Origin: Pseudomonas asgharzadehiana
GTDB taxonomy: Bacteria > Pseudomonadota > Gammaproteobacteria > Pseudomonadales > Pseudomonadaceae
DNA: 64,000 nucleotides
Reading direction: 5' to 3'
Assembly: GCF_019139815.1 (NCBI RefSeq)
Contig: NZ_CP077079.1
Coordinates: 1,984,001 to 2,048,000, forward strand
Part shown: positions 24,578-59,805 of the stretch, one piece after another
Layout: each line of letters opens with the position of its first letter
Numbering within the stretch: the first letter of the stretch is position 1
Notes under the pieces: model-generated
Seen by the model: the letters and a program-made list of their open reading frames with translations, nothing else
Databases searched by the model: none
Told to the model about the DNA's origin: nothing
Translations under genes and position numbers: made by a program

Positions 24578-24772
24578 GGCGAAGCTCCTATGAATGAGCA
24601 CCTCCATTTCGCTACCACACGATGTAAGGAGGCGACTGTACACGGGGTGGTAGACCGGTCATAGAAACCCGGCAGGCCGAAGCCTCCCATGCACAGCCGC
24701 CACAAAGCAGCCCGCGCAAAAAAACGCCCTTGAGCGTTTTGGGGATCTATGAAGGAACCGGGCTACCACACC

Positions 24773-45208: not shown

Positions 45209-45290
45209 TGTGGGAGGGGGTTTGCTGCCGATTGCGGTGTGCCAGTTAAGCAATATTGACTGACATGCCGCAGTCGGGAGCAAGCCCCCT
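45209..45290. repeat. REPIN interrupted by the IS110 element
   Basis: A TGTGGGAGGGGG arm starts at 45209 and the complementary arm runs to CAAGCCCCCT at 45290, where homology to other REPINs ends. The missing CCCACA is found at 46533-46538 on the far side of the IS. Joining the two sides restores a full REPIN. Confidence 0.9.
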
Positions 45291-45309
45291 TGTGTCTTGA
45301 TACGGGATT

Positions 45310-45470
45310 AAGCTGAGAGTGAGAGGGTGAGTGGCAAGCTGAATGCCCGAAGTGCTTAAAGCACGTGTGGGAGCCCATGCTGCCACTCACTTCTCCGCTC
45401 TGGACATGAGCCCGAACAGTTGAACGAGCCCACCTCGAACAGTTACAAGCGTGGGCCAAGCCAGAGCGCT
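45310..45470 (+). ncRNA. Candidate IS110 bridge RNA
   Basis: Two stem-loops with internal loops are seen. The first has stem GTGAGTGGCA/TGCCACTCAC (45327-45336 with 45381-45390) and inner hairpin GTGCTT-A-AAGCAC (45352-45364). Its 3' loop carries TGTGGGAG (45366-45373), complementary to the right target CTCCCACA. The second has stem CGCTCTGG/CCAGAGCG (45396-45403 with 45461-45468) and inner hairpin CGAG-CCCAC-CTCG (45425-45437). Its 5' loop has ACAGTTG (45416-45422), identical to the last bases of the element. Its 3' loop has ACAAG (45445-45449), complementary to CTTGT at the left end. The left target guide is less clear (partial GCCC match). RNA ends are estimates. Confidence 0.82.
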
Positions 45471-45498
45471 CTCACTTTTAGTGTAAGAGGGTTTGGCT

Positions 45499-46431
45499 AT
45501 GTTTTCCTATCCAGCAGGCATTGATGTTTCCAAGGACAGCCTTGAAGCTCGAGTTCATCAGGTTGACGTTGGGGTAAATTGCGCTAACGCCGAAGAAGAT
45601 TTCCCTGGGTTGATTGGGTGGCTATTGCTTCACCAGGTCGGACGCGTGGTGTTGGAGGCTACTGGCGGTTATGAGCGCAAAGTCATGAAGGCGCTTCAGG
45701 CTGCGGGCCTTAATGTCATCTGCGTCAATCCCCGTCGGGCCAAGAGTTTTTCCAGGGCGATGGGGCAACACGCTAAAACCGACCCGATAGACGCAAAGTC
45801 TCTTGCGCAGTTCGCAGCGGTTCTCGACTCACCAAGCAGCCGAATCACCAGCCCGGAACATGACGAGTTGCGCGCGTTAGTCCAGCAGCGAGAGAACTTT
45901 GTTCAGCAGAGGGACGATGACAGAAGGCGCCTGAAAACAGCCTCCTGCGACGTAGTAAAACCGGCGTTGCAGAGCCATATCGACTACTTGAGCAAGGCTG
46001 TGAACGCGATAGAGCAGCTGATTCGCGAAACCGCCAACAGGCTAGACCGCGAAAAGGTCGAACGCCTGTGCTCAGTTAAGGGCATCGGGCTCATTACGGC
46101 GGCTAGCCTAATGGCATATCTGCCGGAGCTGGGCGAGATTGGCAGGCGTCCGATCACGGCGCTAGCGGGCCTCGCTCCGTATAACAACGACAGTGGGAAA
46201 CACCAAGGTGCGCGTCACATTAGCGGCGGAAGGTTTTCCGTGCGTCGCTCGCTCTACATGGCCTGCTGGGTTGTCATCCGGGAACAGCCTGAATTCCAGG
46301 CCCGCTATAAAGCACTGCGCGACAAAGGCAAACGCGCAAAAGTTGCGCTAATTGCATGCATGCGTGTTTTGTTAGTCAGGCTGAACGCGATGCTGCGTTA
46401 TAGAGCCGAATGGAAAGAACACGCTGCCTGA
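45499..46431 (+). CDS. IS110-family transposase (DEDD/RuvC-like and catalytic-serine domains)
   Basis: This intact 310-residue recombinase has an N-terminal RuvC-like DEDD domain with Asp9 (GIDVSKDS), Glu53 (VVLEATGGYE), Asp95 and Asp98 (AKTDPIDAK). The coiled middle is followed by the C-terminal Tnp domain with CSVKGIGLITAASLMAYLPE, and the candidate catalytic Ser232 lies in APYNNDSGKHQG. All motif residues are present, so the protein should be active. A TTG two codons upstream is in frame, but ATG 45499 is preferred. It should use the bridge RNA encoded just upstream. Confidence 0.95.
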   Translation: MFSYPAGIDVSKDSLEARVHQVDVGVNCANAEEDFPGLIGWLLLHQVGRVVLEATGGYERKVMKALQAAGLNVICVNPRRAKSFSRAMGQHAKTDPIDAKSLAQFAAVLDSPSSRITSPEHDELRALVQQRENFVQQRDDDRRRLKTASCDVVKPALQSHIDYLSKAVNAIEQLIRETANRLDREKVERLCSVKGIGLITAASLMAYLPELGEIGRRPITALAGLAPYNNDSGKHQGARHISGGRFSVRRSLYMACWVVIREQPEFQARYKALRDKGKRAKVALIACMRVLLVRLNAMLRYRAEWKEHAA

Positions 46432-46687
46432 ATCGGCAGCGATGTGTGGTTGAAGGTCACACGGCTTGAAGCTGTGGGAGCTTGGCTGTCTTAAAAAGCG
46501 ATGCCAAAGTTAGGGTCATCAAGACAGTTGCTCCCACATTGGTTTCACCCTCCCGCAAATGTTTCTGCGCCCTCCCAATCCCTCGCTACACTCGATCTAC
46601 TACTAAGGTCGTCTGGAACCTGTTCGGCAGCCGCATACAGTGGCCATGTTCCAATAATAAAAAAGCTGTGCTGCGAGGATAAAAACA

Positions 46688-53708: not shown

Positions 53709-53969
53709 CTGACGTTGCAATAGAGCAGGACCGTTGTGCCCGTAAATGCTGCGGCGCAGGCTTCAACCGGCGCCGTAGTTTTAACTTGAGCAGCGACTTA
53801 CAAAGCCGCAGCTCTTATTTTGAAGAAATGAGACAAGCAGGGGCATTCGGGTTGGTACCCGAACTATCAGCGTGATCCTAAGTGGCTTGTTTTGGTCGCT
53901 GCACTTGGCCTTTTGCAAGCAAACTCGGTGTTTTCGCCGGTGGTGTCCCCAAATCGAGGGTGACCAAGC

Positions 53970-59601: not shown

Positions 59602-59805
59602 GCGAGATAATAAGAAACCACGGCGGAGTTGCCCGTCGTGAGCCTTGCGCGCAAGACTCACCGCGGAATATCCGCTGGACGCAGCCTTGCGCAGCTTTAC
59701 GGGCCATAAGCCCCGCAAGTTGCGCAAGCAGCAGTCACAGGTGGCGCGGCACTCATAATGAGCGCAGCGCCGAATGCGCAGTACCTAACGAAGACGGTAA
59801 AAAGC

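Follow-up and report, generated by a model that had tools for sequence, protein, structure and literature searches.

A Pseudomonas IS110-group element whose leader very probably encodes a bridge RNA directed at host REP repeats

The 64,000 nucleotides of DNA analysed here (the window) very probably contain a mobile IS110-group element whose leader encodes a bridge RNA like that of IS621 and which reads the REP repeats of its host; we put the probability of this reading at roughly 0.94. The original prediction for this DNA had named the IS110 leader as the source of a bridge RNA, and the comparative tests of the fold and of guide-site covariation were positive. Elements of this kind are already known: bridge RNAs and seek RNAs have been described (PMC11208160, PMC11187229), and both REP-targeting IS110 elements and a bridge RNA of ISPpu10 have been published. 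The novelty is modest for the element and larger for a link to antisense RNAs. Two features go beyond what had been predicted: a guide base adjacent to the core mismatches most host REP sites of the targeted form, and both strands of the leader are probably transcribed.

The element interrupts a REP in a single-contig genome of 6.1 Mb from the genus Pseudomonas. Its parts are as follows.

45209..45290: left part of the interrupted REP, with the left target AAGCCCC at 45282-45288 and the core CT at 45289-45290; this site is common to 3/3 copies in the genome
45291..46530, plus strand: IS110-group element, 1240 bp, between two CT cores, with a single gene
45499..46431, plus strand: recombinase gene of the DEDD/serine type, assigned by homology, 310 aa, with an alternative TTG start at 45493
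46432..46530, plus strand: right end of the element; its positions 46473-46492 repeat the right junction (AAGACAG..CTCCCACA) imperfectly and in inverted orientation
46531-46532: second CT core, followed by the right target CCCACA at 46533-46538

The recombinase matches the Pfam families DEDD_Tnp_IS110 and Transposase_20, so that by homology both the DEDD RuvC-like domain and the serine domain PF02371 are present, and it scores 211.8 bits against a cut-off of 140 with the NCBIfam model "IS110 family RNA-guided transposase". Only two of 177635 PDB sequences match it at E <= 0.001, ISCro4 (E 1.6e-31) and IS621 (E 6.5e-30), with homology over residues 6-292. The genome holds three full-length copies of the element, all at the same REP position: the left flank ends in AAGCCCC-CT and the right flank starts with CT-CCCACA (3/3), and no copy at an unrelated site was seen. 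That the REP is the target agrees with the 301 AAGCCCCCTCCCACA sites in the genome, compared with 0 for the reversed control, and it is reasonable to regard these repeats as putative safe landing sites. Scattered pieces with 94-97% identity at 3854052-3860557 (L004-L006) on contig C1 of the same genome (G000) are probably one decayed copy of the element.

Relatives were collected by a protein search of 398 Pseudomonas genomes including the window's own, in which at most five candidates per genome were scored and 32 genomes gave matches at E <= 1e-40. Forty further stretches were compared for their ends. At the recognised right ends the bases after the core are CCCAC, CCTAC or, in G161, TCCTAC; relatives with ends outside this pattern, such as L033-L036 (39-43% identical or less), were left out.

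The non-coding part upstream of the transposase gene (tnp) comprises 208 nt, compared with about 100 nt downstream, and it contains the predicted RNA.

45317..45478, plus strand: predicted bridge RNA, based on fold and conserved structure
45326..45391, plus strand: target-binding stem-loop, tip hairpin at 45352-45364; 7/13 pairs of the main stem changed on both sides
45343..45349, plus strand: left target guide ATGCCCG, placed by covariation with sites across relatives
45366..45373, plus strand: right target guide TGTGGGAG, which complements CTCCCACA of the right junction (46531-46538) without a mismatch
45397..45467, plus strand: donor-binding stem-loop, based on fold and comparative structure
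45416..45422, plus strand: left donor guide ACAGTTG, the same 7 bases that precede the right CT (46524-46530)
45445..45449, plus strand: right donor guide ACAAG, complementary to the left-junction bases CTTGT (45289-45293)

The location of the RNA had been predicted correctly, while its span is likely about 45317-45478, slightly longer than claimed. Folding supported the two stem-loops that had been proposed upstream of the transposase: the whole leader has a z of -4.0 and the segment 45308-45478 a z of -5.2, and in both cases 0/200 shuffles were as stable. Among 21 distinct aligned leaders, the window's own included, 12/42 pairs had changed on both sides, compared with a shuffled mean of 3.9, a value reached in 0/500 shuffles; sliding the partners by 1-3 columns reduced the double-sided changes to 1-2. 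Standard pairing was found in 98.9% of the cells of the consensus structure and in 31-48% with slid partners. Further pair types number 22 vs 22.6 in shuffles, so that this one measure out of five does not favour the structure. The two-stem-loop fold is maintained by compensatory changes. The outer stem GAGAG/CUCUC, kept in 95.2% of cells, is less well supported because it has no double changes. Between the left and right target guides CCC/GGG pairing is also possible (columns 32-34 and 56-58 of alignment A2), in 96.8% of cells, since the two halves of the target are alike.

A search of the window with Rfam 15 named no family as a bridge RNA; a covariance model (R1) was built from the leader alignment, and the comparative test stood in for an IS621 model. 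Elsewhere in the window the C4 antisense RNA RF01695 was found at 24625-24707 on the minus strand (68.1 bits), which may indicate phage-derived DNA nearby, and the sucA-II and sucC RNA motifs at 53749-53966 and 59734-59804.

The right target guide was already part of the original prediction, and its 8/8 complementarity to the right half of the insertion site is exact in the window copy. Of 20000 leaders shuffled by mononucleotide, 105 contained TGTGGGAG, 268 contained ACAGTTG and 0 contained both. The left target guide had been called only partly evident. The partial match is real, ATGCCCG agreeing with the element's own target AAGCCCC at 5/7 positions, and the guide can now be placed: across relatives, the seven bases preceding the tip stem of the target loop vary in step with the seven that lie left of the core. 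Over 18 types of target loop the guide agrees with its own site at a mean of 5.61 of 7 positions, compared with 4.53 for permuted pairs (p = 5e-5, an optimistic value and a guide only, because the types share ancestry). With G-U pairs allowed the means are 6.17 and 5.24, and with the later addition of the G196 type (19 types) they are 5.53 and 4.51 (p = 5e-5). An interval of 2 or 3 nt between the end of the guide and the tip stem was allowed, in real and shuffled pairs alike. Two of the 18 types, a P. palleroniana-like one and that of G161, were added by hand, and L056, a variant of an included type, was left out. Only numbers at the level of types are used, because the copy counts include refetched loci (the three own sites are counted nine times).

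Agreement is found in 17/18 types at guide positions 5, 6 and 7. The copies of G018 have the guide CCATTCG and are found mostly in GAATTCG-CT; TAGCGCG in G126 goes with the site AAGCGCG, AAGCCAG in G331 with GAGCCAG, and TCGTCCC with TCGCCCC. The right guide varies too, with GTAGGAG at the site CTCCTAC (G363, G127) and TAGGAAG at CTTCCTA (G161), and the genome counts of AAGSSCGCTCCTACA agree with this variation (491 in G363, 95 in G391, 46 in G126 and 1 in the own genome). In G391 some copies have GTATGAG as right guide, even though CTCCTACA, the one site form counted there, occurs 95 times. Poor matches were seen in an incomplete copy in G117 (guide GTGCCGC, site CTACCCG, 3/7) and in a decayed copy in G196 (GAGTGCG, AAGCCCG, 4/7 by hand). 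On these comparisons of sequences, the target-loop guides covary with the insertion sites, as the original prediction had proposed to check.

The left guide of the window element ends in G, whereas 301 sites of its genome have C at this position and just 18 have G (AAGCCCGCTCCCACA). All three insertions (3/3) are at C-form sites, and the guide mismatches them at two positions on the left. G121 and G174 harbour elements of 89-90% identity with exactly the same target loop; these occupy AAGCCCG-CT sites, with which ATGCCCG agrees at 6/7 positions, and G121 has 205 AAGCCCGCTCCCACA sites. Elements in CCC(C)-CT sites of G158, G308 and G187 have a guide that ends in C. Because the loop is the same as in G121 and G174 and the own copies are all at C sites, the element appears to have come from a host whose REPs are of the G type, and to keep inserting despite a mismatch beside the core. 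For IS621, position 7 of target and donor is described as the "handshake" position, at which base pairing to the own target impedes strand exchange (PMC11208158), and by analogy this is a possible reason why the mismatch is tolerated.

The donor guides match the element's own ends, exactly as had been predicted for ACAGTTG (identical to the seven bases before the right CT) and for ACAAG (complementary to the CT core plus TGT at the left end). The donor loop is too invariant for a covariation test. The joined ends of a circle would add a further feature, a pair of promoter-like hexamers.

45293..45301: left subterminal inverted repeat TGTCTTGAT, with its partner ATCAAGACA at 46518-46526
45309..45314, plus strand: -10-like TAAGCT, with a spacer of 17 from the -35-like TTGCTT

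The -35-like TTGCTT is whole only at the circle junction, where TTG (46528-46530), CT and T (45291) meet. Joined junctions read TTGCTT in 20/22 distinct cases and TTGGCT in 2/22, and TAnnnT follows at exactly 17 nt in 22/22. In the inserted state the first three bases of the -35 position are CCC, CCG or TCG, and a generic sigma-70 scan of the inserted element found no promoter on either strand, which fits a promoter assembled only in the circle, short of proof. Each hexamer of the window junction shares 3/6 bases with the sigma-70 consensus and is therefore weak; the pair resembles the promoter arrangement that has been described at the junctions of IS110 circles (PMC11208160). From its position we infer a start of the predicted bridge RNA near 45321.

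The closest parallel is IS621, for which a leader-encoded RNA with two loops, left and right guides in each loop, a CT core and a REP target are described (PMC11208160); the window element is like it in the predicted two-loop leader RNA, the placement of the guides, the core and the target. The two RNAs also differ. That of IS621 has 177 nt and a 5′ stem-loop, whereas in our model the ends pair (GAGAG/CUCUC) and there is no separate 5′ stem-loop. The left target guide of the element is followed by AA, so that the core does not lie within the guide, unlike in IS621, whose guide includes the core. Insertion into REPs is shared with ISPpu10, ISPpu9 and ISPa11, which we liken to the element by their published description: 7/7, 7/7 and 6/6 of their copies lie in REPs of Pseudomonas hosts, and ISPpu9 and ISPpu10 make a 2-bp repeat (PMC1525189). 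ISPpu9 is further reported with an AG repeat, a 3′ sRNA (Ssr9) and solo ssr9 copies (PMC8450116), and according to its legend, Extended Data Fig. 10 of PMC11208160 draws the bridge RNAs of ISPpu10 and ISPa11.

The element ends, the reuse of one site, the conserved fold, the guide-target covariation and the junction hexamers can be read from the sequences, and they would fit the following course of events. The element would excise as a circle, at whose junction the promoter would be assembled, and from there the leader would be transcribed into a bridge RNA of roughly 160 nt. Its target loop (ATGCCCG and TGTGGGAG) would read the AAGCCC(C/G)-CT-CCCACA half of a host REP and the donor loop (ACAGTTG and ACAAG) the element's own joined ends, and the recombinase would exchange strands at the CT core. 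For circle formation, transcription and catalysis this course draws on the biochemistry of IS621.

A different view, for which the published work on ISPpu9 is the precedent, takes the leader mainly as a regulatory 5′-UTR of tnp, with a hairpin that hides the ribosome-binding site and an antisense RNA that relieves it, the guide matches being a by-product of life in REPs. Such a role was first proposed for the 244-nt 5′-UTR of ISPpu9, where the antisense RNA Asr9 raises tnp translation (PMC8450116), and the conservation of an antisense -10 hexamer (see below) speaks for it too. A pure 5′-UTR, however, predicts neither loop bases that change with the insertion site, nor donor-loop bases equal to the element's own ends, nor a pair of promoter-like hexamers complete in the circle alone, and we consider it very unlikely as the main explanation. 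The bridge-RNA and the 5′-UTR regulatory functions are compatible and can coexist. That the element belongs to the IS1111 group, with a guide RNA in the right end, is more improbable still: its subterminal inverted repeat of 9 bp (4-9 bp across 22 distinct junctions) is longer than the 2-3 bp given for the IS110 group (PMC11208160), which places it between the two published groups, and a second TGTGGGAG lies in the right end (46473-46480), but the longer of its non-coding ends precedes tnp (208 vs about 100 nt), relatives with the same type of leader have a right end of 14-15 nt, too short for a guide RNA, and the nearest solved proteins are IS621 and ISCro4.

The right end itself contains an imperfect inverted repeat, 46473-46492 against 46520-46538, that includes half of the target (TGTGGGAGC..GCTGTCTT vs AAGACAG..GCTCCCACA). 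Judged by eye, this inverted copy is kept in relatives of about 68-100% identity; in 55-57%-identical relatives the right end is reduced to the 14-15 nt mentioned above.

The R1 model matches 38/398 Pseudomonas genomes and 3/369 genomes drawn across the class, the own genome being included in both. Among 72,556 plasmid records there was no near-identical DNA; 2458 records had protein matches, all below 60% identity. All eight extra matches fetched from complete genomes (L156-L163) adjoin a transposase. Guide-only mini-elements were considered for pieces of 65-110 nt in G264, G356, G095, G088, G318 and others and were rejected, most of those fetched stopping at or near contig ends. Transposase scraps only were found in G126 (L151), G196 (L152), G284 (L137), G391 (L144) and G331 (L150), and no transposase was seen at L145 (contig 47 of G391) or at a weak match in G148 (L149). 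Matches without a full transposase gene are read as decayed copies. L145, a bridge-RNA-like match of 62.5 bits away from contig ends with no transposase in the 2-kb stretch, could conceivably be a solo guide. A tandem leader containing an N in contig 45 of G264 is probably an assembly join. An apparent in-frame TGA in relatives was likewise discounted: in the six loci inspected (of seven) it lies at the end of the protein and is thus a real stop codon.

On the strand opposite to the predicted bridge RNA, two further features were found.

45313..45476, minus strand: antisense match to the whole Rfam model RF02234 (sX15), 44.4 bits, E 1e-5
45480..45485, minus strand: TACACT, an antisense hexamer of -10 type, which overlaps the stretch immediately 5′ of the likely ribosome-binding site of tnp

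The sX15 RNA was reportedly first detected as a transcript in Xanthomonas, and Rfam files it only as "Xanthomonadaceae sRNA". The 44.4 bits of the window match are under the Rfam gathering score of 55; the 57%-identical relative L018 scores 61.7 bits and a locus in G409 120.2 bits. In 20/20 distinct Pseudomonas leaders the antisense hexamer has the form TAnnnT (14 TACACT, 2 TAGACT, 2 TAAACT, 1 TAGTCT and 1 TAGGAT). Matches to sX15 occur in 35/198 genomes of the family of G409, presumably the Xanthomonadaceae judging from the Rfam name and the matches, 22 of them above the cut-off, and in 0/14 control genomes.

One sX15 locus each was examined from 30/35 of these genomes; five end at most 58 nt from the match, so that 25 could be judged. 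An IS110-type transposase frame or remnant adjoins the 5′ end of sX15 on the opposite strand, head-to-head, in 22/25 loci, several of them truncated; in L182 the transposase begins about 100 nt off, and L172 and L176 rest on reading frames. Three loci (L179, L183 and L184) have no adjoining IS110 transposase. In this family the 5′ end of sX15 thus lies just upstream of IS110 transposase genes. The R1 model matches the opposite strand at 24/25 loci, weakly in L183 and partially in L192. In 22/25 loci a TAnnnT hexamer starts 9 to 13 nt ahead of the sX15 5′ end, compared with a background of 2.1% for a window of this kind; the loci are related and not independent.

Since an IS110 transposase gene or its remnant faces sX15 in 22/25 loci, this RNA is very probably transcribed antisense to an IS110 bridge-RNA leader, comparable to Asr9, which is antisense to the 5′-UTR of ISPpu9 (PMC8450116). 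The leader in the window probably carries an opposite-strand promoter as well, which would yield an antisense RNA of the Asr9/sX15 type complementary to the bridge RNA; this rests on the conservation described above and on the published RNA of another IS110-family element. More tentatively, and with slightly less than an even chance in our view, the leaders of Pseudomonas and of the family of G409 share a conserved opposite-strand promoter for an "anti-bridge" RNA (Asr9, sX15) that covers nearly the whole bridge RNA, so that an antagonist or a timer of target choice would be encoded by the element itself, and sX15 would be this RNA and not an independent regulator. In PMC8450116, Asr9 is described as an activator of tnp translation and not in terms of a bridge RNA. 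A dRNA-seq study reports 24 sRNAs in the strain studied (PMC3771888), and in PMC6337395 sX15 is mentioned as a table entry. A literature search, with most subscription papers outside its coverage, found no paper naming both sX15 and IS110.

Taken from genomes alone, these data depict a lineage of bridge RNAs that has repeatedly been re-aimed as its landing sites change (GCCCG, GCCCC, ATTCG, GCGCG, GCCAG, GCCGG), and they provide a natural set of guide-target pairs, one of them from a copy inserting despite a guide mismatch next to the core. The link between sX15 and Asr9, if true, would give a function to an Rfam family that is filed only as an sRNA. It would also add an antisense layer to RNA-guided recombination, which bears on the silencing of these elements and on their use as tools.
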